From the NCBI GenBank assembly GCA_900095095.1, contig FMBT01000385.1, positions 124,001 to 188,000 on the forward strand: a stretch of 64,000 bases of DNA. The letters are read 5' to 3'. Below, in pieces: positions 1-59,673 of the stretch. The translations under genes were made by a program, and so were the position numbers. Origin of the DNA: Fragilariopsis cylindrus CCMP1102 (taxonomy: Eukaryota > Bacillariophyta > Bacillariophyceae > Bacillariales > Bacillariaceae). Every line of letters begins with the position of its first letter. Position 1 is the stretch's first letter. The notes beneath the pieces are model-generated. The model searched no databases and was not told the DNA's origin. It was given only the letters and a program-made list of their open reading frames with translations.

Positions 1-789
1 CAACAAGCAATAAAGAAACTTCCTCAAGGGCAAAAACGATGGTTATCCAAACAAGCTTCAGGTTGCATAGGAGTAGGCCACGTGTTAAAAATAAGAAAAT
101 GGCAAAACCACTCCCGCTGCCCTCTCTGCAACAAAGACGAGGAAAAAACGTCACACGTTCTTACATGCCAAGATAAAGATTCGAAAGCCAACTTCAAGAA
201 AAACCTCGATACCATTCTGAAACCAACCCTAGATTCCACCAATACAGCACCGTCACTGTCAAAAGCAATCTTAGAAATCCTACAGATATGGAGACAAGAT
301 AAGAAAGTCAACCCTTCCGATTTTACACTAAATTTTGGCATACGAGCAGCCATCAAAGACCAGAACAACGGATTGGGATGGACCAACTTCGCACTAGGCA
401 GATGGAGTCGTAAATGGCAAGTTTCCCAGCAACAATTCTACGACAGAATAAGATCCAAGAAAAAATCAAAGCGATGGGCCGCAGCTATCATTCACAAATT
501 ACTCTTAACAGCATGGGACCAATGGGATTTCAGAAACAAAATAGCACATAGCGACGAGGGACCAGGAGCAATTGCCCTTCGGCAAAGACTAGATGCAGAA
601 ATGCTAGAAGAAACGCGCAGCGATAATCGACAAATTCTACGCCAAGATACATTCCTCTTTACAAAATGGACGTACACCGAACTTCAAGCCCTTCCAAGCC
701 AGCAAAAACAACAATGGCTAAGATCAGTCTTCCAAGCAAGAAAAGCAATTAACTACAATGCACCTACCGTCCCTTATATATCGCGATGA
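1..789 (+). CDS. C-terminal end of a reverse-transcriptase-type retroelement protein (partial)
   Basis: The frame is open from the first base, so the gene starts outside the window; the GTG at 82 is not a real start. Just inside the edge is a zinc-knuckle-like cluster, CPLC, followed by DEEKTSHVLTC, giving a C-x2-C-x(n)-H-x4-C spacing. It is preceded by a basic, Gly-rich stretch (KRWLSKQASGCIGVGH). This arrangement resembles the zinc-binding tail that follows the reverse transcriptase domain in non-LTR-type polyproteins of diatoms. The remaining 180 or so residues are Lys/Gln-rich and unassigned. An A20 tract follows 120 bp after the stop, as expected at the 3' end of a LINE-like copy. No RT catalytic motif is in the window, so the family call is inference. 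Confidence 0.5.
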   Translation, partial: QQAIKKLPQGQKRWLSKQASGCIGVGHVLKIRKWQNHSRCPLCNKDEEKTSHVLTCQDKDSKANFKKNLDTILKPTLDSTNTAPSLSKAILEILQIWRQDKKVNPSDFTLNFGIRAAIKDQNNGLGWTNFALGRWSRKWQVSQQQFYDRIRSKKKSKRWAAAIIHKLLLTAWDQWDFRNKIAHSDEGPGAIALRQRLDAEMLEETRSDNRQILRQDTFLFTKWTYTELQALPSQQKQQWLRSVFQARKAINYNAPTVPYISR

Positions 790-5945: not shown

Positions 5946-8900
5946 TCAAAATGTAAACAATAGACTAGAGGATTGTTGATTGCCAGGAAAGGAGTGGTTG
6001 ACCCGACTGATATCAACGGATCTCATCAACTTATCCAAAGTTGGGAATCTATCCACCGACTCAAATACTAGTTCAAGTTGGAGATAGTTTGCTATTTCTG
6101 GTGTTGGCACCATTGCCTGACCCACCACCTCCCATTGGTTGCATAGACTGTTGGTAGACAACTGGACCACCTTCCCATTAGCAAAATGAATAGAATACCT
6201 TGACTCCACTTCCACAATTAGAATTTGATCATTGCGATGAATGTCAACAAATGCCGAATCGCTGCCATTGGGATTGATGAGGCGGTAAACCTTACATAAC
6301 AGGTTTTCGACCCTTAAAATTTCCCAAATATCGTGGAACCGGTTTTGCAAGTATGTCTGGATGCCAGATAATGTTTTTCTTCCTGCAAGTCCGGTCCATG
6401 CTAGTTTTGGGTAACGTTTCTCAAAAAACTCAAGGACACGACCCTCCACACTAGTATATGTTCTTAACCATGAAGGAACGCACCCAAGTGCAGATAGAAC
6501 TGACAACTGATGTTTTGCCGAAAGGGGACCCATTCCATGAACTGTGTCCTGAAATAAAGCTGAACAGGAATCGTAGATGCCATCAATGGTTGTAAGATTA
6601 GGTTTCGTGGGCGCTCTCTTCCATATGAAAAGGCACACAACCAGTTTCTTTACTGCACATTCAATCCAATCCGATGGAGATAGTAAATGCAGAACCAGTG
6701 GGAACTGCTTGGAGGAGTGGTATCGAAAGACCCCCAACTTGAGACGCTTTCCTGTTCGTGTTGTTTTATGAGCATAGTATAGATCGCGGTAGTGAACCAT
6801 TCGGGTAGCAAGGTGCTGTCCAATTGCTGCCGCCTCTCCATGATACAAAACTTTGCGCTCCACTAGCTCGAACACAGCCAGATCAAAGAAATAAGCGCTG
6901 TTTGGGAATATATCCATGCACATTAGAACGCTGATAACCTGCAGCAACGACAAGTGAAACACGTGCTGAAGAACACAGGTCGGGTGAATGAACAATGTTA
7001 GGAAGCCTGTTTACATTTGAGCATTGAACAGTAATAGAGGGAGTGATGTTAGGTGAACAGCAAATGCAAATATCATATTCTAACGGATGGAGAAGGTGCA
7101 GCAAGAACTTCATTATTACTTACCCATAGGATCGATGTTACATGGAATGGTGAAATGATTGTGTCCAGGTGACACCCCTCCTTATGCGCTTCTTCAAAAG
7201 TTGTAGGATTCAAATGACGTCGGTGCAGTGGCAACTTGGAGTACACTGTGGTTAATTCTTCCAGCAGTGGTGCCATAACATCGCTGCGCACCATGCTTAC
7301 TGATATACTCTTGCGAAAGTATGCCGTAGTACCAATTCGATTCCCGTCAACCCAACGGCATGCACCAACAACAAGCGCTAACTGTGAAGTTTCGTCATAT
7401 ACTGGGTTATTCACATCCTTGTGTGGTAGAAGAAGATTTTTACGATTAGTGAGATGAATAGTAAGTCCTTCCAATACGTTGTCTGGCGCAATTGATGCAG
7501 CAAATGGAAGGCGCTTCGCATCAGGGATGAACTTAGCCCAGATGGGAAGCATCTCCAACCGAAAAATAGAGGACATGGACACAAACAAGTCCTTGATAAC
7601 TGGTTCGAGTGTATTTTTGAGCAGATTTGGAACAGATGTTCCACATTCATCACGGCGAGTGCATCTACTGGAAGCATATCCATAGGAGATACTGCTCCTT
7701 TTCGCTTGTCGGAGACATCCATATACATTGAGTGGATCGACCTCTGACAGTAGGCGATTCAACTTGTTGAAATCCATCGAATCGAGAATAGGACTATTGT
7801 ATTTGACTCATTGAATATCACACAAAAGGATGTGACATGGTTTCGATTCATGCGATACAGTAACACAGGGAAATCCTTTGCAAATCCTGCCTTCAAAAAA
7901 GCAGCCAACTCAGAATCAACCTGCTGCAAATGTACAAGAGATGATAGTTGTCGGAAAATATATACCTGTCCTGCTGGACAATCTTGAACCACATGGACTT
8001 CAGTTTCCGTTTGAACTACAAGACATATACCTTTTGGACAAAGGGGTCCCGACCAAATCTTAGAACCAGCACAGTAACGTTCAATGGATTGAGGCGGAAT
8101 ACCTTTCGGTGCACAGGAAGGTTTTTTAGACTGACGTTTCTTGGAACGTTTCCTTGGCTTGGAGTAATAGCGGTTGAAGCCAAAGCCGAAGCTGACTTCT
8201 CCATCTTCTTCATCGTCGTCATCGTCATCTTCATCATCTCCCCCTCAAAGTAGGAAGGAAGTGGCACATTAGGTGGAATCCGAGTGCTGCGTCTGGCAGA
8301 TGGTATAATGGTTTTAGCACCCGCATCCGTACTGTCCTCATCGCTCTCCTCGTCACTGCTGCTGTCGCAGCGTTGGCCAGACACCAAATCAGGCATGTCA
8401 TCAGGCATGTCACTATCACTTCACTATCACTTGATGACAGTAGGTCAATGAAAGTGTCAGCTGTGCGTCCAAGAATTGGAACTGTAACTGGACCAGTGAA
8501 GGAGGGAATAGTTCCAGAAGGACATGGTGGACATCCGGGAGAAAAACTGGAAGATTTCAAAGGAGAAGAGGAACGTTGTTTCGGGTGGAAGATTTCAAAG
8601 TAGAGGAGAACGTTCCTTCCGGTGAAGATTTCAAGTAGAGGAAGAACGTTGTTCAAGGTAGAAGATTTCGAAGTAAAGGAAGAACGTTGTTTCATGGTGG
8701 AACTTTCGATGTAGAGGAGGAACGTTGTTTCATGGTGGAAGATCTCTTAGTAGAGGAGGAACGTTGTTTCATGGTGGAAGATTTCGCAGTAGAGGAGGGA
8801 GGGTGTTTCATGGTGGAAGATTTCGCAGTAGAGGAGGGAGGGTGTTTCATGGTGGTAGCAGAATTAGAAACATCTGGAGCAAAGCTGGAAGCTTTCGAAG

Positions 8901-9528
8901 TAGAGGACCAGGTAACTTGCGAACCAAACCGGGAAGCTTTCACAGAAGAGGCAGTAGTAGATGGAGATGACCAGGACTGGGAGGCAGTAGTAGATGGAGA
9001 TGACCAGGACTGGGAAGCTTGGGACTGAGACAGTTTCGAAGATTGGGAAGCTTCGAATGTAGACGATGGTGATGAGTGGTTCAAGGTGGATGTCGAGGAT
9101 GGAGGTTGTTCCAAGGTGTAGCCACGTTCCATAGTATAACGTGCACGTGGTTTCCCATAGGATTGTACGGTGGCGGTAGCTGAATTGTCAGTATAGGATG
9201 AGGAATGGGAAGCTATAGAACAGCATTGCGGATCGAAGTGGATGGATGTATCAGAGCTGGTTGTAATGTTGGATGGAATGATCTTTGCTAAACCATCAAG
9301 GTCGGAAATGTCATCTGAAATATCCAACCCATAACCGCGGTATCCTTTATCGTCAATCGAACCAGGGGACACGCGCTGTTTCATACTGGTACTGACAGTG
9401 GAAAGCACGGACTTCTTTGAGGAAGTTGCCGGCTGTTTAGTATCAGCAACAGTAGAGGAGAGCATATGGTGTCCATCACCGGGAGACGTTTTGAATGTTC
9501 GTGGTGGACCAAAAGTGGTTTGGGGCAT
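5946..9528 (-). CDS. Companion gene of the transposon, frameshifted, one clear intron
   Basis: Reading down the minus strand from ATG 9528: a Ser/Thr-rich N-terminal region with 13-residue repeats (SSTMKHPPSSTAK-type); an acidic region (SSSDEESDEDSTD) followed by a basic one; then a globular region with PHKDVNNP (HxDxxNP), ACRWVDGNRIG and YFRKSISVSM; and a long C-terminal domain. A spliced junction is clear: donor GTAAGT at 7123, acceptor CAG before 6938, phase 0 (intron 7123-6939), joining ...TSILW to VISVLMCMD.... Single-base deletions are needed near 7800 and at several points in 8000-8690 to link the N-terminal frames. The HxD..NP...RKSI block resembles proteins accompanying large transposase-like genes in diatoms and fungi, but I cannot name the activity. 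Convergent, 96 bp from the 3' end of the transposase-like gene. Confidence 0.45.
8595..8866 (-). repeat. 39-bp coding minisatellite in the companion gene
   Basis: Units with the core GTAGAGGAGG start at 8711, 8750, 8789 and 8828, a strict 39-bp (13-codon) spacing, with more degenerate units to the left. On the minus strand each unit encodes a 13-residue SSTMK[HQ][PR].. repeat. Confidence 0.85.
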
Positions 9529-9750
9529 GGAAACACCACCAACCTGCTTTTAGAACCAGTCCGTACGGAGGGAGAGTTTTTGATTTTCCTTTGCATGATT
9601 TATATATTGGTTTTATACAATTTGGAATTGTAAATTATGAAACTGAAATGAGATGATATAAAAGCAGGAAATATTCATTTTGTTGTTTTAATATTTTATT
9701 ATGGCGAGGGACATGGAACAGGAGGACTAAACGGTTCATGTATGCGAATG
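9529..9750. other. Putative upstream region of the transposon companion gene
   Basis: AT-rich spacer between the minus-strand ATG at 9528 and the start of the satellite. A TTTATATATT stretch near 9600 and a GATATAAAAG near 9655 could serve as core-promoter elements for the leftward gene. No gene is seen, and I could not identify terminal inverted repeats here. Confidence 0.35.
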
Positions 9751-11870
9751 CGTGATACTAAAATACGGCGAGAGACAACCGTATGCAGTCTTCAATGGGT
9801 ATGCGACATGAGCAGCACTATGACAGAGCATGCATGATCCATGCATTCTAATTCTATATCATATGCTTGACGCGATAGTAAAATACGGCGAGAGACAACC
9901 GTATGCAGTCTTCAATGGGTATGCGACATGAGCAGCACCATAACAGAGCATGCATGATCCATGCATTCTAATTCTATATCAAATGCTTGAGGGGTGCAGT
10001 GGGTGTTATTATTATTATATACGCGATAGTAAAATACGGCGAGAGACAACCGTATGCAGTCTTCAATGGGTATGCGACATGAGCAGCACCATAACAGAGC
10101 ATGCATGATCCATGCATTCTAATTATATATCATATGATTGACGGGTGCAGTGGGTGTTGTTATTATTATATACGCGATAGTAAAATACGGCGAGAGAGAC
10201 AACCGTATGCAGTCTTCAATGGGTATGCGACATGAGCAGCACCCTAACAGAGCATGCATGATCCATGCATTCTAATTCTATATCATATGATTGACGGGTG
10301 CAGTGGGTGTTATTGTTATTATTATCTACGCGATAGTAAAATACGGCGAGAGTCAACCGTATGCAGTCTTCAATGGGTATGCGACATGAGCAGCACCATA
10401 ACAGAGCATGCATGATCCATGCATTCTAATTATATATCATATGATTGACGGGTGCAGTGGGTGTTATTATTATTATTATATACGCGATAGTAAAATACGG
10501 CGAGAGTCAACCGTATGCAGTCTTCAATGGGTATGCGACATGAGCAGCACCATAACAGAGCATGCATGATCCATGCATTCTAATTATATATCATATGATT
10601 GACGGGTGCAGTGGGTGTTATTATTATTATTATATACGCGATAGTAAAATACGGCGAGAGTCAACCGTATGCAGTCTTCAATGGGTATGCGACATGAGCA
10701 GCACCATAACAGAGCATGCATGATCCATGCATTCTAATTATATATCATATGATTGACGGGTGCAGTGGGTGTTATTATTATTATTATATACGCGATAGTA
10801 AAATACGGCAAGAGTCAACCGTATGCAGTCTTCAATGGGTATGCGACATGAGCAGCACCATAACAGAGCATGCATGATCCATGCATTCTAATTATATATC
10901 ATATGATTGACGGGTGCAGTGGGTGTTATTATTATTATTATATACGCGATAGTAAAATACGGCGAGAGTCAACCGTATGCAGTCTTCAATGGGTATGCGA
11001 CATGAGCAGCACCATAACAGAGCATGCATGATCCATGCATTCTAATTATATATCATATGATTGACGGGTGCAGTGGGTGTTGTTATTATTATTATATACG
11101 CGATAGTAAAATACGGCGAGAGTCAACCGGCGTATGCAGTCTTCAATCGCCGCTCAACGCTTATTACGCGATCTTACGAATATTCCATGGAGGTGCAGCT
11201 TGACGTACGCGATAGTAAATAAAAAATTCCATGGAGGTGCAGCTTGACGTACGCGATAGTAAATAAATATACTTCAATGGGTTTGCGACATGAGCAGCAC
11301 CCTAACAGAGCATGCATGATCCATGCATTCTAATTCTATATCATATGATTGACGGGTGCAGTGGGTGTTGTTATTATTATTATATACGCGATAGTAAAAT
11401 ACGGCGAGAGACAACCGTATGCAGTCTTCAATGGGTATGCGACATGAGCAGCACCCTAACAGAGCATGCATGATCCATGCATTCTAATTATATATCATAT
11501 GATTGACGGGTGCAGTGGGTGTTATTATTATTATTATATACGCGATAGTAAAATCGGCGAGAGTCAACCGTATGCAGTCTTCAATGGGTATGCGACATGA
11601 GCAGCACCATAACAGAGCATGCATGATCCATGCATTCTAATTATATATCATATGATTGACGGGTGCAGTGGGTGTTGTTATTATTATTATATACGCGATA
11701 GTAAAATCGGCGAGAGTCACCCGTATGCAGTCTTCAATCGCCGCTCAACGCTTATTACGCGATCTTACGAATATTCCATGGAGGTGCAGCTTGACGTACG
11801 CGATAGTAAATAAAAAATTCCATGGAGGTGCAGCTTTTGACGTACGCGATAGTAAATAAATAGAGCTCAT
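9751..11870. repeat. Tandem satellite, unit 151-156 bp, about 12 copies, with a higher-order variant
   Basis: The phrase CGCGATAGTAAAATACGG recurs at 9871, 10022, 10173, 10329, 10483, 10637, 10791, 10945, 11099, 11387, 11541 and 11694. Spacings are 151, 151, 156, then a constant 154 for five units, and 154 and 153 later. The first copy (from 9751) is a 120-bp unit lacking the ATT-trinucleotide segment. Each unit holds a near-palindrome GCATGCATGATCCATGCAT and a variable (ATT)n run. A different segment with CGCCGCTCAACGCTTATTACG is inserted twice, about 595 bp apart (11141-11280 and 11738-11860), showing higher-order structure. Short open frames across the array are by-products of the repeat and are not annotated. 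Confidence 0.95.
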
Positions 11871-12100
11871 TTACGAATATTCCATGGAAGTGCATAAAAG
11901 ACAAGCCACACATCTATTACGACTTATCATTGCAAAGCTTATTACGATCTTACGAATATTCCACTAAGGTGCATAAAGGACAAACCACATCGAATTGATT
12001 GATTCTAATTACACTGGATATCTATCACGTGGGTGCATCTGTTACGGCCGATTATTGCGAAGCTTACGATCTTACGATCATTCCACTCACGAGGTGCATT
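11141..12100. repeat. Second degenerate repeat family (TTACGAATATTCCATGGAGG-type)
   Basis: A core reading TTACGAATATTCCATGGAGG plus TGCA recurs, complete or shortened, near 11172, 11227, 11769, 11818, 11871, 11950 and 12072. It decays to the right and loses the satellite unit altogether after about 11870. The last degraded copy ends about 10 bp before the ATG of the H3-tail-like gene. Confidence 0.75.
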
Positions 12101-12106
12101 ATTATT

Positions 12107-12503
12107 ATGGCACGAACAAAAGAAGTAAGTAGAAACTGAACAAAACCAGGGGATTATATTCAATTGAATATACCAGTACAAACCAATACCAATTCGTAAC
12201 TAACATAATTATTTATTTGTTTCCATTTCTTTTTTTCAACTTAATAATTATAATAAGACTGCTCGAATGTCCACGCCCCAGCGTAGGACCGAGGCACAAC
12301 GGAGAACTTGGAACAGGAGGCCACGCATGAGTACCACTACCGAAACAGAGGGGAGACGTCGTCGGATACGAAGTCTTCGAAGTTATTATCGTCCTCCCAT
12401 CCATGAGCCCTCAGTCTCACCTGCATCAATCAGACAACACCGCATGCCACCGACTCCAATCACACCCGACCATCAGTACGAGAACAAAAGTGTTGCTGAT
12501 TAG
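12107..12503 (+). CDS. Histone H3 tail-like small protein, no histone fold, Met at the K9 position
   Basis: Exon 1 (12107-12124) encodes MARTKE and runs into a consensus donor GTAAGT. The 133-bp intron ends in a pyrimidine-rich stretch and AAG at 12257. Exon 2 (12258-12503) continues TARMSTPQRRTEAQRR. Spliced (phase 0), residues 1-11 after Met are ARTKETARMST against canonical H3 ARTKQTARKST: 9 of 11 identical, with Q5E and K9M. Similarity continues weakly: EAQRR for KAPRK, PRMST for ARKSA (again Met for the K27 lysine), and YYRPP for RYRPG. The 87-residue product then ends in a Pro-rich tail with no H3 alpha helices, and the alternative frames downstream contain none either. Without splicing, the frame stops 5 codons after GAA. 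The gene abuts the satellite. Alternatives: a degraded H3 gene copy or an expressed H3-tail mimic. No expression evidence is available. Confidence 0.6.
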
Positions 12504-12668
12504 TTATGCTTTGTTAAACAGTTCAATTAGGATATTTTTCATGGCAAGAAAATATACAGAAATATGTTTCCAAACTAGGAACAATATAAATCAAGTAACA
12601 TGAAATAAATAATAAACTAGTTAAGTTAAAACAAATTCCTTAGACACATACTTTTATAATATATAAGA
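12504..12668. other. Short AT-rich convergent spacer
   Basis: Lies between the H3-tail-like gene and the 3' end of the following minus-strand gene. It contains AATAAATAATAAA around 12604, plausible as a polyadenylation signal for the plus-strand gene. Nothing else is seen. Confidence 0.4.
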
Positions 12669-14998
12669 TTAATCAAGGTTCCTTGGTACCCTGTTTCTCC
12701 TAGTCTTACTTAATCCGGGCAACTTGCCATGTGTGTCTGTCGTGATAGAGTTGTAACACGGTGTGCACATGATAAATGGGATAAAATCGCCACCTTGGTC
12801 AGGCCTAATGAATTGACAGGAGCTACACATGTAAAGAACATATTTTTTAGTTCCTTTTTTCCTAACGTCTTCATTTCCATCTTTTAAGACGCAGTTGCCG
12901 TTGGCGGAGGGGTTTGTACAAAAGGAACTCCTGATTTACCTATTTGGGGAAAATAATATTTATTATTATCCAGTTCCTTTAAACAACTAAATTCACACGG
13001 CATATTGGGATGAAGATGAGATTGGAGGCAATAACTAACCTGATTTTTTTTTGCTTGGTCTACTTTAGCCAGTGCTGCTGTAAGTTCTGCTTCCATTTTC
13101 TTGAGTTTGGCCCCCACCACCCCCTTCCTTTTGGGAGATTTTTTTGTTGGCTTCTTTTTAGTCGCAGCCTCCACTAGATTCTTTTTTTGGGCAGTACCAT
13201 CATCCATTTTGGACTTCCCTCTAGGAGGAGAGCTCTCAGAATCTGTAGTTACTGTTATCGTTACAGCAGCCGTTGCCGCTGCTGCTGCAGTTACTCCCGC
13301 TGTTGCCTTTGCTTTGGCCTCCGCCTTGGCCGCCTCTTCATCCGCTTTCTTCTTGGCCTCGGCTTCAGCTGCTGCCTTTGCTTCGGCCTCCGCCTTGGCT
13401 ATAGCAGCTGCCTCTTTGTCTGATTTCTTCTTGGCCTCGGCTGCAGCTGCTGCTTTGGCTTTGTCAGCTTCCTCTTCTTGTGCCTTGTTCTTAGCCTCGG
13501 CTTCGGCTGCTGCCTCTACTTTGTCAGCTTCCTCTTCTTCTACTTTTTTCTTTGCTTCGGCTAGTGCTGCAGTTACTAAAGCTGTTGGTGGTGCTGGAGC
13601 TGCACCAGTGACTGTTATTGTTGCTGCTGGAGTTACTACTGCTGGTGCAGTAACTACTACTGGTGCTGCTGCTGGTGTTGGTGGAGGTGCACCACCAACA
13701 ACGTCAGTCGCTGCTGCACCACTAAAAGTAACTGCAGCATCAATAACAGTCACTGCTGCAGGTAGATTCGATGCGGACTGATTAGATGCATCCACATCAG
13801 AATTGGTTGGTGGAGTCGGTGCGGACTGATAAGTTGCAATCGTAGAAGATTGAGACATATGATCTATATGGTTCCTTCCATCATTGTTACCAGGTGAGCC
13901 ATCAGCCGATGGGAAAAATGTTGATGTTGATGACGGTGACACACTTGAGGAAGAGGAAGATTGAATGGAGAAATTTGGGTTGGTTTGACCTAGTTGGTTC
14001 ATAGACGTTTGCTGGAGGTTCCTTGTTCCGTGAGGCGGTTGGGCATAATGTAAAGGAAAAGTATGATTGAAGCCATTACTATTATTGGGAGGCGTCACAT
14101 AGACCACATGGCCACCAGCATGTGCACTATATTGACTAGGTGCTGCCACCTGATTATTCGCCGGGAATGGATGCGTTAATGGGTTTGCTGGATGGGGAGT
14201 GTTTTTGAACTTTTTTGTTTCCCATAAACAGCCAGGTTTAATTTTTGAACCAAACCGTTGTGCGAATTGGGAATGTAAATCCGTCATGGCAGATGAAATA
14301 AGACGTGTAGCGAAGTTTTGTCTTTCCTTTGGTCCAGAATAATTATCTATGACCATACCACGGTGTTTCATTACGCTGTCCTCCAAGTACTTAATATAAG
14401 TTGGTATTTTAAGGCATGCTTTAACCTGGTCTATAACAAATCTCAAAATATAGAGAATTTGAATATCATCTGCAGCCAGTTTCAGAGCATCTTTATAATT
14501 AGTCACCTCTGTCCGTCTTGGTATTTTCAACAAATCCAAAACTTTGCAATAATGCGCATAGAATAGCAGTTGGTAGGTCGACAGTAGATCCTTTCTAATG
14601 ACATCAGCAATACCTTTAATAATTCCAACAAAACTATCCATTTGAGCTTTTGCATCTCCTGTTGTTACATCCGTCGAGGGAAAATGCATACGGTACAAAA
14701 TTTTACCATGTTCTTTTACCTCATAATGGGTACCAGCGGATATTTTAAAAGCCGCTCTTAATGATTTATGATGCAGCAAATAATACGGAACCCTCAATGT
14801 GCTGTCATCTACGATGTACATTGGAAAATCCTTTTCCTTACAAAGTTGATGAGCACGTAGTTCAACGGTAGGTAACTGTCGGTGTAAAATAGCAGTTGGA
14901 TCAAGGTGAATTTTTCCCCCATCAGTAGTACTGGTATTATAACCAGGAAGGTTGCGACCCGAAGTTGGATCAATGTAGCGTACATTGTGAACGTTCAT
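12669..14998 (-). CDS. Hypothetical Ala/Lys/Glu-rich protein with C-terminal CxxC-x16-CxxC zinc ribbon (one frameshift)
   Basis: An ATG at 14998 opens a 704-residue frame: a globular N-terminal domain (about 1-250), a Gln/Pro/Ser/Asn-rich linker, an Ala/Pro/Val stretch, a long AEAKKKADEEA-type helical segment like TolA-style linkers (about 480-600), then a basic NLS-rich part (KKKPTKKSPKRKG). The frame stops at 12884. If one base is missing in the GGGG at 12909-12912 (CCCC on the coding strand), it continues for about 75 more residues with MCSSCQFI ... IMCTPCYN, a CxxC-x16-CxxC zinc-ribbon pattern, ending at 12669. The coherent extension argues for the longer product. The function is unknown. 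Its position next to the satellite and transposon suggests an element-associated, possibly multicopy, gene. Confidence 0.5.
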
Positions 14999-16353
14999 TT
15001 TTAAATTTTATAAAGATGGTTATACAGTGGCGGTGTGATGAGGTCTTGTTCTTTTTTCCTGAAAGGACGACTGTATTATGAGACTATGAAATAAGTATTT
15101 CCTTTCCGAAGCTTAATATGATCAATAATATACTCTATACAATTACTGTAGTATTGCTTTCAACATTAAAAAAAGGTACGGCGAAGATCCAAATTTTGTA
15201 TAATTGGCCACAAAAATTTAGGACGTAAGTATTTCTGGTGACTGCTATACGTTGCGATTGGAGTATGCGTTAGAATAGGCTTTGGAACGGAAAGAGCATA
15301 AAGTTGGTTATTGTATAATCATTATATAATACTGCATATATATTATATATATTACATTCATAATTTTAGTGACCATATAAAAATATATGGTGAAGTATAT
15401 ATAATAGTGCAACGGTTCCATATGGCATGAATTGCAATAGTAGAATTTTGGGGTTCAACAAAAATCCAAATTCAAAATTGAGAAAATAACGGATTAGGAA
15501 AAGTTAACGGATTTTTTTAATCACATAGAGAATAGGGATTGCCACAACTGTAAAGGGCATATACATAACATAAACATGTGAAATAATCCAATAGTGACTA
15601 AATGCAAATTGCGGTCCCGGAGAATGGCCTGTAAGTAAAAAATATTTTTGGTGAAGAATTGTGGGAATTCGCCGGGAATATACCAGATGTTGGTCGCAAA
15701 CGAAAAATTGGAATTGAACGGGAATTGATGAAATAGAGAGGGAATATTCCAGTAGAATTCTCCCAATATTTCGGTGGAATTCCGCGCACTTTCATTAAAC
15801 TATCATGTTCTTCGTTTGCTGTGTCATTGCCACTCCTCAGAGAATTAGTGTTTCACTTCATACCCGACTCATTTTGACTACTTGGATTAAAAGAAAATTG
15901 TAAGGAACTTAGTCGAACACAAAAAATACCGTTAATCGTGGAGATGAGTCTTGTCAGATTTTGTGGAAGGGAAATAAACAAATATGAATCATCAGCAAGA
16001 AAACATCGGAGTGTCACATACATATATATATATTAATATCTACGCTAAAATACCAAGGCGCACTTCGCTCCTCACTCCTGAATTTCACGTTCGGAATAGC
16101 TACCATCGTCACAACCCTACTCGTACCAGTATCGTTCGAATAGTGGTCGCCGCTGAGTATCAGTAGACAAGCAAGCAGGAAGGCTTCACAATCTCATAGA
16201 AACAATACAATAGAATACATCCCAGTATTTTAAATCCACACTAACGTTACAAGAAATTAATCAAATTAAAAAGAATTTAAAAGAAAATCGAAACAACGGA
16301 GTTTGAAAAAAGAATAGAATAGAAAAGAAAAACAAATCCCAACCTGCCCAAAG
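14999..16353. other. Intergenic, AT-rich, no gene recognised
   Basis: Upstream sequence of both flanking genes, which are divergent. There are AT-rich tracts (for example around 15330-15400). Short open frames around 15520-15795 have no recognisable content. I see no RNA gene or repeat that I can defend. Confidence 0.5.
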
Positions 16354-51911: not shown

Positions 51912-54900
51912 TTATGACTGTCCTAGTAGCCCCATCTCCCCTCCCCCGTAGTTATCATCGTCATAGTCATCGTCCATCATGAGCCCTCCACCACCAAACT
52001 TACTTTTTTTCTTCCCTCCTGGTAATTTAAACTTGCCGAGTAGACTTTTACTGTTGTTTACTTTACTACCCATAGCTTTCAAGACAGACACGCCACCTCT
52101 AATACTATAGGCACGTTTACTATTCCTGTCTCCTTCTGGTGTTCCTGGTACCTGTAGGGGTTCTTGAAGAAAACCACCCCCTCCTCCAGCAGCTGCATCG
52201 CTATGGAATGCACCACTAAGTCCGGAATTATTATTATAGTCACTGCCGCTACCGCCACCGTGTTCTGCCACATCCAATAGACCACCACCAGGCGAAGATT
52301 TCTTTGCCTTAAATGAATTGAATGGATTCTTCATAGGCACCATTATCGAGGATGCGCCGTTACTGCTAATGCCTCCAGCAGTATTGCCAAAAAACTTTGG
52401 TAAGTTTGGTAACCGAGCTTTGGCTCCTATTTTGGACCTATAGTTGTTCATATTACCCTTGAAGCTATCCATAGCACCAAATTCTTCACTTTTGAGTCTA
52501 CCACCAGTTAGAAACGCGTCTTCTTCCTCCTCTTCCTCTCCATCATCTTCCTGGATTGTTCCTGGAGGGAGGAGTCCATTAAGCTTCTTCTTTCGTGCTC
52601 CTGTCAGAAGACCTCGATTGCTTCCAGTAGAAGTTACAGATCGTTGTGACTGTGACGACGCTGATCGTCCAGATCGCTGACGATGTTGTTGCAAACTTTC
52701 AGGACCCTTCGATAGAGATGTGCCGAAAGTGATATTATTTTTTGGTTTTGGAATCTTCGCTTTTTTGATTCTCAACGGTGCTATTGGCTTAATACCAAAT
52801 CCTCCGCCACCAATACTATCATTATTATTACTGAAGGCATTGTTCTGCTGCTGATTCAAATCATCTTCCATTTCCTTTCGTAAATCAGCAATCGTAAAGG
52901 TTTTCTTTTCCTTCATCTTTTCGAGTGCTTGTGCATAGACCTCGGCTGGATCAATATCGTCAATTGCTAATTCTCCGTCCTTTTTCCTCTTGAGCATACG
53001 ACGTGTAGAATGGTATTTGTAATCCCCCTCATCAGATGAAAGACTCAGATCACCAGAGCTCTCACTTTGAACACTTTTATGACTCATCAGATTCCGACCA
53101 CTCAGCATCCTTTTTACGTCCTGAGGCATCGAACGAGCCTGTAATCGTTGTAGGTACCCACCATCGAATTTGGCACTTCCTTCGTCTGAGTCTGCTGATC
53201 CATGCTCACTAACACTCTTCTCAGAAGGATCGTCGTAGATGCTGAGATGGTCATCTACACTTTGGATCCTCGTTGCCGTAGGCCCAATATGGTAATCTTG
53301 AATTTCATCGTAATCGTCATCATCGATCTTGAAGTCGTCATCGGAATCAGAATCGAATACGTCCTGCATTGCCTTACGAAACTCCTTAGTTAGAGTCCTA
53401 TCCAATTTCTTTTGTGATTTCTGTCTCTTTTTGTTTCTGCTTCTGTTTCTGATATTGATCTTCTCTCCTTCGAACAAGAATAAGCGGGGTACATCCTGCA
53501 GACCGTTACTTTCCTTCTCTTCCTTTTTATCTTGCTTTTTTTCGTCTTTGGTACTCTCTTTCACTCGTTTTCTTTCCCTGAGCCGTTGATTGATTTGTAC
53601 AATAACATTTTCATCGGCAACAACACTCTCCCAAGTTGTATCGAATTCAGCTCTTTTGCTTTCGAGCTTTCCAGCAAGACGACTTTCAATAATTTCATAT
53701 TCTTGAAGACCAAGGTCGTAGACCTCATCACCGAGTGATGTTATGGAGTTCGACTCATGCATCGACTGTTCTGCCTCTGCCTCTGCCTCTGCCTCTGCCT
53801 CTGCCTCTGCCTCTGCCTCTGCCTCTGCCTCTGCTTCTGCTTCTGCTTCTGCTTCTGCTTCTGCATCAACATCTTCAACTATGCTATCAAAATCTCCCTC
53901 TTTATTGCTTGAATCTATATTGCTTGATTTATTGCTTAGATCTTTATTACTTGAATGTAAACTTGTCACAGATTCTGCTTCTACTTCTGCATCTTCCTCA
54001 GGTATCCGGGAAATAAACGATTGAGCTAGTTGGTAGGAATTATCCGAGATACTGGTACTAGAAGGCTTCTCGTTCTCTTTCTTGATCGTTATCCCCTGTA
54101 TATTTGACTGGTCGACGTCAATGAGATTCGTAGCCGCAATCCAAGGTCGCTCTTGTATTTTGTTCGCATCATCTGGATGAATTTTAACGCGACGTCTTCT
54201 GTCTGACTTGTCCTCTTTTATCGATTTTGATAGCTGTAATGTTCCTAGACTAACGTCATCGCCATACTTTGTCTTTGTACTTCTACTTTTCTTCTTCTGC
54301 TTTCTAAGATGAGCTCCAAGGGTGAATGATTTCGTTTTTTTCTTTATATTTGCTGATCTCGGTTTTTCCTCCCTGCTAGGTATACCGGGTTTTCCGGTAC
54401 TTGTAGACTGATCGGATGTTTTCTCTCCAACAGATACTGACACTGGTTCTGGAACAGTTGGACCCGAAGCATTGCGAGGTGGGGGTTGAGTTAGTTCCTT
54501 TGACTCGTAAGACGATTCGGTTGGAAAACCCGCAATATCCGGGGACGCCGAATCCACATGCTTGAGCTTTGTTTGGTAGTCAACTTGATTCCCACGGTTG
54601 TCCTCATTTCCAGCTTCATGATTAATCTTGTTTGGGATGATTTCTTCTTTTTTGCTCCCAAAAATTTCTTCAGATTCAGATGAGTTACTACTGATGCTGC
54701 TATCCCACGAGCTCAACGACGAGTCGTCTTCACCTTCCATATCCTTATCTGCCGTATCGGTCTCCCACGAAGATGATCCGATAGATTCATCAGCTTTCTT
54801 TTTATCAATTGTCTCTTGAACAAGCTGCTCTTGCATAACCTTCTCTCTTTCAAGTCCTTCAACTTCGTTGTCAAGTTCCAATGCCTTCATCTGCTCCTTA

Positions 54901-57900
54901 ATCAATTCCTCTTGCATACGTCTTGCGTCCTCAAGCTGTTGCTTCTTCTTGTCTTTATTTCTGTTACCAAATACCCCACCGAACACACCCCTTTTGATTT
55001 CTTCCTTCTCTCCTCCTTTAGAGTCAAGATGTTGCACTGGCGGAGACCCTATGATCTGGACTGTATGAGCTGTACCAAGTGAAGGCAATCCATCAAGTTG
55101 TTTTTCATTTGGAGGCTGTGTACCACGGTCACCTTCAGAAATCCGGGTAGCTTGGTCACCTTCGCGTTTGGTTTTCTTCTTTCTCCTCAGTTTCTTGGTC
55201 ATTTGCTTCTGTTCTATCCTCTTTTTCCGCTGCTCCCTTCTCTCCTCCTTCTCTATTCGTCGCTTTTCTTTTTGTTCCCGTTTAGCTTTCTTTCTTAGTT
55301 CTTCCTCCAACAATCGCCTCGTATTTACGAACTCCACTTTTGTAACACTTGTTTCGTTTCGTTGATTTCTCATTATTTCTAATTCGTCAAGATCATCTTC
55401 AAGAAGTTCTTCATTTCGATATTTCTTCATCAGAATCTGTAACCATTGAAACTCTTTTTTATCAAGTCTCTTTCCTGCCATCTGTCTTTCAGTTAGATCG
55501 CGCCTATATACAGAATCGTCGTCTTCAACCATGATATTTTCTACTTTATCAGACTGACCGTCAATGATACGAAGATTCAGTCTTGTTTTCCTTAATAAAT
55601 CGAGTTCATCCAAATCATCCTCGTTTAGTTTGTTACCATCTATTCGTCGCTCGAAAAGATAAAGTTCGAGCAATTCGTCCTCAGAGAGAGTTTCACCGTT
55701 TAGGTTTCTATGGAAAAGTTCGACTTCATATAGCAAGTCTTCGTTGACTGCTTCACCACGAGAATTCCTATCAAGGAGGTCCCGCAAGTATTCTTCGTCC
55801 AGAATCGTCTCTATTCTATCTCTCTTGAAAATCTGAAGTTCTGCTATTTGCGTTTCCGATATAGCTTCTCCTTCCCGCGTTCGCCTTAACAACTTGAGCT
55901 CAAAGCTCTGCCTGTCACTGAGTTGCTCCTCATCTCTCATTCGAGTGAGCAACTCGAGCTCGTAGAGAAGATCCTTGTCAATGTCTCCTCCGCTAGTTGT
56001 AAGCATACGAATATCGCCACGGCCGTCGAGTAGACTGTACTCCTCTCGTACTTCCACATCAGGTAATTCATCATCCGATATTATTTCAGTCGGGTTGGAT
56101 TCAGACTGATCGTCTTCATCAATCACTTCTTCACCTCGAACTTTCGGGCTGGATATATTGCCGTTTTCGTTTTCGTCTTCTTCTTCTTCATTCTCTCGTT
56201 CTTCCGCATCAGGCGTTCCACTATCCGATATTATTCTAACTGGGTTGGATTCTGTTGGGTCTTCTTTATCAAGAGGTTCTTCTCCTCGAGTTCTGGGGTT
56301 GGTAATGTCAATTTTCAGTGTTTCTCCGTCTTCTCCGTCGTGTATAGAACTGCATGCTCCTAGAGGCAGATTAGTTTTCTTGTGTTCTTGATTAGAAGGA
56401 GCTTTACTGTCCGTTTCACCATACACTTCAAAAATGCCATATTCGTTATCAAGCTCATGCCCCGGGTCTTCGTCCAAATTAAATTCGTTATCCACTCCCT
56501 GATGTAAGTTATGAACATCCTTCTTGTTTGTATCCTCATGTTCACTCAATTGCCTCAAAGCATTCGTCTCTTCAATCTCAAAATCTTGAAGATCATCGTC
56601 CTGCCTTGTGTATTCCAAAGACTCTGTCTCTTGCAATTCATGAGATACTTCTCCAGTTTGAATTTGCTCCGTCAATTTTTTGTCATCTTTGTCCTGTCCG
56701 CCTTCGAGTTGCTCCCTGATCTGTTTAAGCCACTTCAATTCTTCAATTTCATCCTCTAAAAGATCCTCGCCTTGTTTTATCCGTTCCAAAAGTTCTAGCT
56801 CGTACTCTTCGTCTTCCTCAAGCGGTTTTCCGCTTTGAAGTCGTTCCATCAATTTATTATATTGAATGTCATTGCCTACATAGTCAATGCGTGAATGCGT
56901 AGAGTTGTTTCCTGTATCTTTTGAAAATGATTCAGTCTCACACATGTTGAGCTCAAAAATATCATGTACTGTCGTGTCCGAATTTTTCTTTTCTTCTTCG
57001 ACTACGACAATTTTCATAGTTTGAGGCGTTTCAACCACCACAGCATTTTCGGACACAGCATTGTCTTTTGCTAAAGAAGCATCAAAAATAATAGCCTCAA
57101 CCTCTTGATCCACACGCAAGTTCAATTTTTCGTCCATGGAACGCGATCCTTCGGTTGATATAAGCGTTAATGTATCAACAACATCAATTGCGTCTTTATT
57201 GTCCGATGTTTCTTCCTTTATTTCTTCGCTTTCTGAAATGTCGATCTCTGATTCTCTTGCGTCAATCTGCAAATCTGGTCCTTCACGTGGAAGAGGATAT
57301 TGTGGTTCTTCTTTTGTCACATTCTCAGTTTCCTCAGTTTGTGATATTTCGTCAATATATTTGTCGTCCGTGCGTTGTAACTGAAATAGATCGAGATCCA
57401 TCAGCTCGTCTTCCGTGAGGTCCTCTCCCTGCCGTTGCCGAAAAGTTAGTTCTAGTTCATACAATCGATTTTCGTCTACAGTTTCACCTCGTTCTTTTCG
57501 AGTCAATAACTCATCGAATTCATCTTCATTGAAGGAATCGTCTACGGCTGGACCGTCTCCTTCATCGTTGATAGAATCTTTTTTCGTGCGTTGTAACTGA
57601 AATAGATCGAGATCCATCAGCTCGTCTTCCGTGAGGTCCTCTCCCTGCCGTTGCCGAAAAAGTAGTTCTAGTTCATACAATCGATTTTCGTCTACAGTTT
57701 CACCTCGTTCTTTTCGAGTCAATAACTCATCGAATTCATCTTCATTGAAGGAATCGTCTACGGCTGGACCGTCTCCTTCATCGTTGATAGAATCTTTTTT
57801 CGTGCGTTGTAACTGAAATAGATCGAGATCCATCAGCTCGTCTTCCGTGAGGTCCTCTCCCTGCCGTTGCCGAAAAAGTAGTTCTAGTTCATACAGTCGA

Positions 57901-59207
57901 TTTTCGTCTATAGTTTCACCTTGTTCTTTTCGAGTCAATAACTCATCAAATTCATCTTCATTGAAGGAATCGTCTACGGCTGGACTATCTCCTTCATCGT
58001 TGATGGAATCTTTTTTACTGCAGTGGTCGTTGTCAACCTTGTTAAGTTCACGGTCTTCTTTGTCGGCTAATATCTCGATTAGTTCGGAAATACGTTCTGC
58101 ATCAACACTATTTTCCTCACCTCTATCCCTCTTGTCAAGAAGCATTGTCATCTCGATGTTGTCAAAGTGTTCATCATCTCGAAGTGTGAAATAATCTTCC
58201 ACAATATTATTCTCTTCTTCAGAAATATCAACTTTGCAACGTTTCCGATCCAACAAATTCAAAAGATAAAATCGATCTTCGTCTACGTCTTCACCTTTTT
58301 CTTTCAATTGCAAAATTTCATTGAAGTCTTTCTGGTTAATTCGAGCATCCTCACGACGTAATTCCAATAATTGTAGTTCTTCATTCTCTTCTTCGGTCAT
58401 GGCTTTGTCACCTTTACGTTTTCTATCCAACAGGCTGAGTTCATTTAGTCGCACTTCATCAACATCATCGTCCCCATTTTTCTTTTTCCATTCAAGGTCT
58501 AATAAATCTGTTTTGTCTTGCCTTTTTTGTTCCAAATATTGTAGTTCTTCATTTTCTTCGTCGGTTAGTATTTCCCCCATACGCTGACGCGACAGTAACT
58601 CTAAATGGTACGTTCGATCCATGTCTACCTCATCATCCACTTCTAGCTCGGTCTCGTCTTTTTTAGCTTGTTTGCATCTATCGGCTAAAACAAGTAGTCG
58701 TTCCAGTTCTTCGTCACTCAATTCGTCTTTCCCTGAGCGTTGGGTATTGAACAGTTCTGACGCGATATTATCGTCCTTAGACAACGAATCAATACCATCT
58801 ATCGATACACGTTCTTGCAAATCCTCTTCGTACCATTCTATTTTTTTAAATACCTTTTTTCTTCGTTTCTCGCGTATTTTTGTGGCGGTACTACTGTCAT
58901 TTTGTTGAGAGTCATCCTTCTTTTTCTTTTTTGAATTAGATTTCTTGTTCTTTTTGCTTTTTCCCGGCACAATCGCTTTTTTACTAGTAGATGATGTGGT
59001 CTGGGGTGACACCGACTTCGGACTGGGAGGATGTAGTGGATTATTATTTATTGGTGTTTGGGATTGTGTAGAATCATCTGCCGTCTGGGATGCACTGGCT
59101 TGATTTTTCTCTGGTTCTGGTTTAGTATCCGCATTATTGTCATTATTATTGTTCTTTCCCCCTTTAAACAACCCAAGTCCCCAACCTCTCTTCTTCGGGC
59201 TTGCCAT
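51912..59207 (-). CDS. Giant acidic repeat protein (2431 aa), ~20-residue SHOCT-like helical repeat
   Basis: A single uninterrupted exon from ATG 59207. The N-terminus is basic/Gly/Asn-rich (KKRGWGLGLFKGGKN). Residues about 120-1300 are dominated by a repeat of about 20 residues with consensus ELxLLxRxRxGExLxEDELx, for example ELELLFRQRQGEDLTEDELM, LLDRKRKGDKAMTEEENEEL and ELYLFERRIDGNKLNEDDLD. It alternates with Ser/Glu/Asp-rich spacers; three spacers plus repeats form 72-residue units nearly identical in DNA (57370-58017). Then come a KKK/RRR-rich coiled coil (about 1310-1420), disordered segments, an (EA)n run, and a Gly/Ser/Lys-rich C-terminus. No enzyme domain, TM or signal peptide is recognised. 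The repeat recalls the short SHOCT helical pair in shape only. Probably an intracellular scaffold or filament-associated protein (inference). Confidence 0.7.
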   Translation of the reverse strand: MASPKKRGWGLGLFKGGKNNNNDNNADTKPEPEKNQASASQTADDSTQSQTPINNNPLHPPSPKSVSPQTTSSTSKKAIVPGKSKKNKKSNSKKKKKDDSQQNDSSTATKIREKRRKKVFKKIEWYEEDLQERVSIDGIDSLSKDDNIASELFNTQRSGKDELSDEELERLLVLADRCKQAKKDETELEVDDEVDMDRTYHLELLSRQRMGEILTDEENEELQYLEQKRQDKTDLLDLEWKKKNGDDDVDEVRLNELSLLDRKRKGDKAMTEEENEELQLLELRREDARINQKDFNEILQLKEKGEDVDEDRFYLLNLLDRKRCKVDISEEENNIVEDYFTLRDDEHFDNIEMTMLLDKRDRGEENSVDAERISELIEILADKEDRELNKVDNDHCSKKDSINDEGDSPAVDDSFNEDEFDELLTRKEQGETIDENRLYELELLFRQRQGEDLTEDELMDLDLFQLQRTKKDSINDEGDGPAVDDSFNEDEFDELLTRKERGETVDENRLYELELLFRQRQGEDLTEDELMDLDLFQLQRTKKDSINDEGDGPAVDDSFNEDEFDELLTRKERGETVDENRLYELELTFRQRQGEDLTEDELMDLDLFQLQRTDDKYIDEISQTEETENVTKEEPQYPLPREGPDLQIDARESEIDISESEEIKEETSDNKDAIDVVDTLTLISTEGSRSMDEKLNLRVDQEVEAIIFDASLAKDNAVSENAVVVETPQTMKIVVVEEEKKNSDTTVHDIFELNMCETESFSKDTGNNSTHSRIDYVGNDIQYNKLMERLQSGKPLEEDEEYELELLERIKQGEDLLEDEIEELKWLKQIREQLEGGQDKDDKKLTEQIQTGEVSHELQETESLEYTRQDDDLQDFEIEETNALRQLSEHEDTNKKDVHNLHQGVDNEFNLDEDPGHELDNEYGIFEVYGETDSKAPSNQEHKKTNLPLGACSSIHDGEDGETLKIDITNPRTRGEEPLDKEDPTESNPVRIISDSGTPDAEERENEEEEDENENGNISSPKVRGEEVIDEDDQSESNPTEIISDDELPDVEVREEYSLLDGRGDIRMLTTSGGDIDKDLLYELELLTRMRDEEQLSDRQSFELKLLRRTREGEAISETQIAELQIFKRDRIETILDEEYLRDLLDRNSRGEAVNEDLLYEVELFHRNLNGETLSEDELLELYLFERRIDGNKLNEDDLDELDLLRKTRLNLRIIDGQSDKVENIMVEDDDSVYRRDLTERQMAGKRLDKKEFQWLQILMKKYRNEELLEDDLDELEIMRNQRNETSVTKVEFVNTRRLLEEELRKKAKREQKEKRRIEKEERREQRKKRIEQKQMTKKLRRKKKTKREGDQATRISEGDRGTQPPNEKQLDGLPSLGTAHTVQIIGSPPVQHLDSKGGEKEEIKRGVFGGVFGNRNKDKKKQQLEDARRMQEELIKEQMKALELDNEVEGLEREKVMQEQLVQETIDKKKADESIGSSSWETDTADKDMEGEDDSSLSSWDSSISSNSSESEEIFGSKKEEIIPNKINHEAGNEDNRGNQVDYQTKLKHVDSASPDIAGFPTESSYESKELTQPPPRNASGPTVPEPVSVSVGEKTSDQSTSTGKPGIPSREEKPRSANIKKKTKSFTLGAHLRKQKKKSRSTKTKYGDDVSLGTLQLSKSIKEDKSDRRRRVKIHPDDANKIQERPWIAATNLIDVDQSNIQGITIKKENEKPSSTSISDNSYQLAQSFISRIPEEDAEVEAESVTSLHSSNKDLSNKSSNIDSSNKEGDFDSIVEDVDAEAEAEAEAEAEAEAEAEAEAEAEAEAEAEAEQSMHESNSITSLGDEVYDLGLQEYEIIESRLAGKLESKRAEFDTTWESVVADENVIVQINQRLRERKRVKESTKDEKKQDKKEEKESNGLQDVPRLFLFEGEKINIRNRSRNKKRQKSQKKLDRTLTKEFRKAMQDVFDSDSDDDFKIDDDDYDEIQDYHIGPTATRIQSVDDHLSIYDDPSEKSVSEHGSADSDEGSAKFDGGYLQRLQARSMPQDVKRMLSGRNLMSHKSVQSESSGDLSLSSDEGDYKYHSTRRMLKRKKDGELAIDDIDPAEVYAQALEKMKEKKTFTIADLRKEMEDDLNQQQNNAFSNNNDSIGGGGFGIKPIAPLRIKKAKIPKPKNNITFGTSLSKGPESLQQHRQRSGRSASSQSQRSVTSTGSNRGLLTGARKKKLNGLLPPGTIQEDDGEEEEEEDAFLTGGRLKSEEFGAMDSFKGNMNNYRSKIGAKARLPNLPKFFGNTAGGISSNGASSIMVPMKNPFNSFKAKKSSPGGGLLDVAEHGGGSGSDYNNNSGLSGAFHSDAAAGGGGGFLQEPLQVPGTPEGDRNSKRAYSIRGGVSVLKAMGSKVNNSKSLLGKFKLPGGKKKSKFGGGGLMMDDDYDDDNYGGGEMGLLGQS
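53770..53864 (-). repeat. Coding hexanucleotide (TCTGCC/TCTGCT)n encoding (Glu-Ala)n
   Basis: About 16 tandem hexamers, first CTCTGC-type then TTCTGC-type, read on the minus strand as alternating Glu-Ala in the giant repeat protein. Likely length-polymorphic. Confidence 0.9.
57370..58017 (-). repeat. 216-bp tandem repeat, three copies
   Basis: CGTGCGTTGTAACTGAAATA starts near 57372, 57588 and 57804: exactly 216 bp (72 codons) apart. The three copies differ at only a handful of positions. They encode KKDSINDEGDGPAVDDSFNE ... LDLFQLQRT units. Confidence 0.9.
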
Positions 59208-59673
59208 GATCGATTATTCTTGTTCTTATGTTGTGATTTAATTTTAAATATGTTCTTTGCAATGACTACCACCGTTTTTATTGGAAGTGAAACATTAGCA
59301 TATCCGCTCTAATGGCCAAGTAAGAATGAATATATCGTTTGCAATAATGTAAACAGCTTTGGCGAATAAAAGTATTGTCAACGCCTTCACTGCTACTGTG
59401 ACTTATGGGTTTGTGATGAGAATGTTATTGTTATTGTAATAATGAAACACAATGTTAACGAAAAATAATACGTGAATTGATTTAAAAACTTGACTCGTGA
59501 ACTGCTCGAACTCATTAATTAATTAATCGCCTAAAAAAGAGAGAAAAGGGCGACAAAAGTCTTCAACGCTCTATTTTTTGTTTATAGTGACGGTCAAAAA
59601 TATAAGTCATAGTTTTAAGGGCTTATCGGCATCATTATCCATATTTATAGAATATTGGCTTATTGTAGCTTGT
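59208..59673. other. Intergenic
   Basis: Upstream of the giant repeat protein gene and downstream of the 2OG oxygenase gene. AT-rich; no gene seen. Confidence 0.5.

Follow-up and report, generated by a model that had tools for sequence, protein, structure and literature searches.

Does a short predicted gene that starts with the residues of the histone H3 tail and lacks a histone fold encode an H3 mimic, or is it what remains of a decayed H3 copy? The locus lies in a 64,000-nt stretch of the Fragilariopsis cylindrus genome (67.9 Mb, 818 contigs), C311:124001-188000, referred to below as the window. The simplest reading of the sequence is that the gene goes back to the 5' end of an H3 gene with an intron. 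To judge by its relatives, it belongs to a family and is no isolated remnant of a decayed H3. The best reading of this family, to which we give a probability of about 0.4, is a set of H3-tail mimic genes made with the 5' end of an H3 gene.

The candidate gene and its alleles

The coordinates and the 12124/12258 junction of the first-pass annotation are correct at the sequence level, with a splice donor, a splice acceptor and a stop codon in the second exon (Table 1). The product of exon 2 begins with TARMSTPQRRTEAQRRTWNRRPRMSTTT, and the whole predicted protein has 87 residues. Its tail, ARTKETARMST, agrees with the H3 tail ARTKQTARKST at 9 of 11 positions, as had been claimed; K4 is kept, and there is one predicted intron. 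The H3-tail module stops right after TARxSTP. An H3-like sequence stands at the exact N-terminus of a non-histone gene model.

A second allele of the window gene was found on contig C649. Over 2 kb starting at the ATG, the alleles agree at 1901 of 1921 aligned bases, with 158 gap columns. Within the gene, exon 1 differs at one base of 18 (Gln5 in C649, Glu5 in the window), the intron differs at two bases of 133, and exon 2 is identical. With Gln5, the C649 tail matches H3 at 10 of 11 positions.

Table 1. Features of the window around the candidate tail gene
Feature	Position	Strand	Remarks
Exon 1	12107..12124	+	ATGGCACGAACAAAAGAA; codes MARTKE (MARTKQ in the C649 allele)
Predicted intron, 133 nt	12125..12257	+	GTAAGT...AATAAG; after codon 6, phase 0
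Exon 2	12258..12503	+	81 codons and stop; TARMSTPQRR...KSVAD
H3-tail module common to C83	12103..12278	+	157/171 aligned bases, from the ATG to nt 21 of exon 2
Short 3' flanking block	12504..12545	+	related to the 3' flanks of C83 (27/40; 29/39 in another alignment) and C299 (27/40)
Upstream motif CTTACGAATATTCC, copy 1	11173..11186	+	found before the C649 and C83 genes too
Upstream motif CTTACGAATATTCC, copy 2	11764..11777	+
Upstream motif CTTACGAATATTCC, copy 3	11949..11962	+
Large partner gene	5949..9549	-	divergent from the tail gene; conserved part in three frames, N-terminal part in several (window haplotype)
Tandem array	9754..11860	.	120-154-bp and 44-46-bp units, between the two genes

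Three other features of the window were recorded. A 707-residue ORF with an Ala/Lys/Glu-rich repeat region lies downstream of the tail gene (12887-15007, minus strand; no Pfam match above noise). At 1-789 (plus strand), the end of an ORF contains a zinc finger of the reverse-transcriptase type (zf-RVT, E=1.3e-4, below the Pfam cut-off). A 2433-residue ORF at 51912-59213 (minus strand) contains a 216-bp repeat in three copies, and TCTGCC about 16 times (57369-58016, 53770-53864).

Probable origin from a histone H3 gene

A search of the 67.9-Mb genome with ATGGCNMGNACNAARNNNGTRNGT, which stands for ATG-A-R/S-T-K-x followed by a splice donor, gave eight matches, against none in a backward control, and thus the window tail is not a chance similarity. 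The matches are two intron-bearing H3 genes with two alleles each, the loci on C83 and C299 described below, and the C311/C649 pair. At least 39 histone-family matches were found in the genome, and 30 of them were fetched as loci and read. Thirteen are of the H3 type (L001-L013), seven of these without an intron. In L008/L009 and L010/L011 the intron follows MARTKQ (MARTKQ/TARKS), exactly as in the window gene. This position, after codon 6 in phase 0, is common to the window gene, the two H3 genes and the two paralogs. Exon 1 and the intron position of these H3 genes match the window gene; however, H3 has a histone fold and the window family has none.

The absence of the fold, claimed initially from the window sequence, was borne out by a Pfam scan of nine family sequences, some of them partial or near-identical, in which PF00125 was not among the families listed at E<=10. 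Among the at least 39 histone matches listed, none is a fold remnant downstream of the tail on C311, C649, C83 or C299. A PDB sequence search with the tail protein gave one match, a histone H3 chain at E 4.4 covering residues 1-44.

A recent fragment of an extant H3 gene, which had been named as an observation that would speak against a functional tail gene, was rejected. The 36-nt heads of the C311, C649 and C83 genes agree with five H3 sequences at 27-29 of 36 positions, and that of C299 at 18-21. The bodies of the family align to one another, which argues against an unprocessed H3 pseudogene. Between the family introns and the H3 introns there are only short T-rich matches, the best with E 0.001, of doubtful meaning.

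A CENH3 tail fragment was considered and rejected too. The divergent H3 of this genome, which is probably CENH3, is a split gene in apparently two alleles (L012/L013, on C55 and C535), and the tail in its upstream frame, MARYKQSGPRRSTG, differs from the window tail. A true H3 relic looks different again: an H3 fragment was noted near L028, where a C-terminal H3 piece lies within a 69-residue open frame at C773:14199-14300.

Paralogs and environmental relatives

Two paralogs were found in the same genome, both with open frames: C83:196114-196739 (161 aa, starting MARTKETARKSTPKKKTEAEQEIWDRSPG) and C299:171916-172505 (162 aa, starting MARTKADSGRKTPKPRTEAEQVRWDSMPK). Exon 1, the intron, exon 2 and the 3' flank can be aligned across C311, C83 and C299, which indicates that the ancestor probably already lacked the histone fold. 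The C83 tail matches H3 at 10 of 11 positions. The C299 protein has only ARTK plus scattered matches; most of its H3 likeness past ARTK is missing (ARTKADSGRKT), which counts against the mimic reading.

A database of 5.8 billion proteins yielded five environmental relatives. One search gave one relative among 70 candidates, another gave two of two, and an alignment search gave at least five among the 8000 best-word candidates. P0001 and P0002 resemble C299. P0003 and P0004 resemble the window protein (97% and 92% identity, over 90% of the query); P0004 differs from window exon 2 by an in-frame repeat of seven residues, with no frame break. P0005 is a diverged relative with 23 of 74 positions identical to the window body (E=2e-08 in a single comparison); it shares RPPxxExSVSP and PITPD with this body. 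Since all five are exon-2 frames on contigs of 790-4808 bases, they bear on sequence and not on splicing.

The C-terminal part of P0005 (KILKVTESIL...) recurs in two other genes, on C674 and C72 (L058, L059), close to their N-termini, and is possibly another module moving between genes.

Near the C-terminus, the proteins of C83, C299, P0001 and P0002 contain V(V)DL(S/I)SGDSNSDPVDLT, and P0005 contains VVDLTGSDSN. The SIM consensus, as given in the available text of PMC8616421, is a hydrophobic core (hhXh or hXhh) with acidic or phosphorylatable residues next to it. The segments VVDLSSGDSNSD, MVDLISGDSNSD and VVDLTGSDSN fit it. Thus a SIM-like sequence is present in C83, C299, P0001, P0002 and P0005, that is, at two of the three genomic loci. 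The window member is shortened: it has no Ser tract and no SIM, and ends before the position of the SIM-like segment. A search for SUMO-like folds gave 37 matches, in which SUMO was not told from ubiquitin. Pattern scans of viral contigs gave 9 and 57 matches, none of them confirmed as relatives.

To judge by these searches, the family is so far known only from this genome and the five environmental proteins. Among the literature matches listed for H3-tail mimics, fold-less H3 and diatom H3 variants, mostly titles and abstracts from a collection with subscription journals largely outside it, nothing resembles it.

The divergent partner gene

At all three loci the tail gene stands head to head with a large partner gene. 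On C83 the partner (198179-202121) is open for 1314 codons. On C649 there are 820 and 377 open codons around a predicted GTAAGT intron that holds four stops, and the C299 partner changes frame at the same place. A frameshift in C299 was therefore rejected as an explanation, since the break lies where C83 and C649 have the GTAAGT donor. In the window haplotype the partner is frame-broken; one of its frame changes falls at this predicted intron. A fourth partner copy, on C89 (from 382285, minus strand), is open and has no recognisable tail gene beside it; sequence of the tail-gene 3' flank remains there. Distant partner relatives with 26-27% identity were observed on C636 and C531 (L065, C636:1-2000; L066, C531:3600-7200), one of them with a SIM-like FTIDLTDESDSES. 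This makes four close loci and two distant ones.

The close copies are under purifying selection, as pairwise omega is 0.09-0.31 among C83, C89 and C299 (two domains, 214-354 codons). The N-terminal part is repeat-rich and probably disordered, with SIM-like IVDLTSS and FIDLLSSSDSESD. These large genes form a low-copy family, and their conserved part has about 700 residues. Five partner pieces had no Pfam match at E<=10, and a PDB sequence search gave peroxin 19 (E 0.4-0.6). An AlphaFold model of the exon-1 domain, made from four sequences, had a mean pLDDT of 31 and is worthless.

The first-pass annotation had also placed a satellite beside the gene. The tandem array is indeed present, but a genome-wide satellite was rejected: the at least 27 matches found are all on C311 or C649. 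Tandem repeats occur also in the corresponding place at C89. The upstream regions of C83 and C299 are homologous over 3.1 kb (83.5%).

Probable exchange of the tail module

Between the ATG and base 21 of exon 2 the C311 and C83 genes are 157/171 identical (120/132 in the intron), and past this point only 46/87. This break, which directly follows the H3-like STP, is sharper than in any of 2000 column shuffles. The tail piece was probably exchanged between the loci, as it is this similar although silent sites of the neighbouring partner genes have reached saturation (pS 0.78-0.79 when C83 is compared with C649 or C311, 0.74-0.82 for all such pairs). Positive selection as the cause of the drop in exon 2 was rejected: silent sites there are equally diverged, and module exchange fits better.

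C83 and C299 show the converse. Their partner dS is about 0.2 and the C-termini of their tail genes agree at 154/174 positions (15 gap columns), whereas identity drops to 11 of 21 bases in the exon-2 tail codons and to 75 of 101 aligned bases in the intron. Thus the C83 gene carries a C311-like tail module on a C299-like body, its module being close to C311 and its partner and C-terminus close to C299. The upstream motif CTTACGAATATTCC matches 13 of 66 loci scanned, all on C311, C649 and C83, and is absent from the C299 and histone loci. The mosaic is best explained by gene conversion or an exchange of that kind.

Selection on the tail protein

The dN/dS comparison proposed at the outset gave a divided answer. 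Between C83 and C299, omega is 0.91 over 140 codons, 1.23 over the first 39 and 1.73 over codons 14-39. For the body without the tail module it is 0.99 (81 codons; bootstrap 95% range of pN/pS 0.49-2.41), that is, near 1. Only the C-terminal 57 codons, with omega 0.45, lean to constraint. Where C83 and C299 differ in length between conserved blocks, the reading frame is preserved. The window gene compared with the paralogs gives omega 0.58-1.1 over 24-36 codons. The 13 tail codons are too few for such a test. Taken together, the evidence on constraint is mixed and mostly against strong constraint.

Methionine at the position of lysine 9

Methionine in place of K9 had been noticed at the outset, and ARMST is indeed present in both window alleles. 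C83 has ARKST at this place, and the change from AAA to ATG needs two bases; C299 reads GRKT, with the Lys one place on. Thus two loci keep Arg-Lys in the K9 region and one of three has K9M. A similar claim for K27 did not stand. The Met of the second RMS is residue 29, and relatives have PKIT (C299, P0001, P0005) or PGMR (C83) there, so that this site probably never was ARKS27.

The parallel with H3K9M turned out closer than first proposed. Residues 1-11 of the C649 product, ARTKQTARMST, are those of the H3K9M peptide ARTKQTARMSTGGKA, which, according to the available text of PMC5030085, was crystallised with G9a and SAM. The same text reports that with SAM, H3K9M peptides bind the SET domains of Clr4 and G9a better than the wild-type tail, that a phosphate on S10 lowered binding to Clr4, and that methyltransferase assays with Clr4 included pre-incubation with an H3K9M peptide. 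This identity is the firmest ground for the idea that Lys-to-Met tails trap methyltransferases, although by analogy, as the enzymes are those of other organisms and the peptide was free. The mutant histone H3K9M has the same eleven residues as well, but it is a full nucleosomal histone and the window protein is fold-less.

In another diatom, Phaeodactylum, western blots showed H3K9me2/3 and the marks were mapped to transposons, but they escaped detection by mass spectrometry (PMC4504042, from the part of the text available). In our data, a Pre-SET family search gave no match, and none in the controls either.

Possible function and alternative explanations

The course of events may have been the following. 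An unrelated coding sequence, probably for a disordered protein, would have received the 5' end of an intron-bearing H3 gene, namely exon 1, the position of the intron and the opening codons of exon 2; the homology is observed, and the donor event would account for it. The tail gene stands head to head with the conserved partner, and the tail module would have been copied between such cassettes by conversion. The predicted products start with ARTK and lack the fold of a histone; those of two loci out of three end in a SIM-like segment. After removal of the initial Met, the H3-like N-terminus would face the readers, writers and erasers of H3K4 and H3K9, and the SIM would tie the products to SUMOylated chromatin complexes. 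The tail genes may thus be decoys for enzymes that read or write chromatin marks. The window product, if made, would be a soluble competitor of the H3 tail, possibly held tightly by SAM-bound H3K9 methyltransferases, as is the H3K9M peptide.

Drift of a decaying family is a close competitor of the mimic reading, and the explanations are not all exclusive. As a decayed H3 gene, the window copy is poorly explained. Tentatively, it may instead be a decaying member of a family that arose by duplication of an H3 5' end and has drifted since, with no product that matters. The omega values near 1 in the tail body, and of 0.58-1.1 between the window gene and its paralogs, are what such drift would give, and it would also account for the missing SIM and Ser tract of the window copy, the broken partner frame of its haplotype and the absence of a tail gene at C89. 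It explains less readily why every tail-gene frame is open, at each of the three loci and in either window allele, why exon 2 is identical in these alleles, why P0004 differs by an in-frame repeat of seven residues and not by a frame break, why P0005 retains a related body and a SIM-like end, and why the GT...AG splice sites are kept in all copies.

Another view, compatible with mimicry and in itself rather unlikely, is that of a low-copy selfish or mobile two-gene cassette, whose genes are copied together and whose tail protein shields it from silencing. The head-to-head pairs at three loci, the lone partner at a fourth and the two distant partners are consistent with it, as are the 3.1-kb upstream homology of C83 and C299, the swapped tail module, and the tandem repeats between the genes at C311 and C649 and in the matching place at C89. 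The copies are few, however, the partner has neither a Pfam match nor a usable structure model, and the viral-contig scans confirmed no relative. Less likely again is that the window product mainly traps H3K9 methyltransferases in trans, which is the initial idea without K27M. The ARMS context and the match of the C649 allele, over residues 1-11, to the peptide crystallised with G9a and SAM speak for it, as does the use of an H3K9M peptide with Clr4 (PMC5030085). Against it, K9M occurs at a single locus and Glu5 of the window haplotype departs from that peptide; moreover, fission-yeast Clr4 was trapped on chromatin at nucleation sites, and the window protein cannot enter a nucleosome. The most speculative and least likely variant joins these elements: a natural gene for a soluble H3K9M peptide, being the captured H3 5' end of a cassette, would have its Lys and Met forms swapped by conversion; it would occupy the H3K9 silencing machinery, or trap it, so that cassette and partner stay out of heterochromatin, with the SUMO-binding members as chromatin anchor.

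If the mimic reading is right, a fold-less family built from an H3 5' end, with SIM-like ends, a constrained partner and a travelling module, would be a natural experiment in which the histone code serves as an adaptor, and its K9M member would be the natural counterpart of a laboratory inhibitor peptide. Even if nothing binds these proteins, they would be a clear example of a chimeric gene with a histone as parent.

Comparison with known histone-tail mimics

Earlier examples of histone-tail mimicry are viral motifs and short docking segments. A paper by Chen et al. of 2021 reportedly deals with mimicry of the H3 N-terminus. The SNAG domain, another such mimic, is not known to derive from an H3 gene. 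As described in the available text of PMC10208167, NS1 of influenza H3N2 is a non-histone protein with an H3-tail-like stretch, ARSK, that engages the chromatin machinery, which is how the tail family may act. However, ARSK is a short motif at the C-terminus of a viral protein, whereas the family has the H3-like sequence at a true N-terminus, together with the intron position of the host H3 gene. The SNAG domain of Snail1 and GFI1 is likewise an H3-tail mimic, which recruits the H3K4 demethylase LSD1 (PMC12612597, available text). It is part of a transcription factor, whereas in the tail family the H3-like N-terminus is followed by a probably disordered body with or without a SIM.
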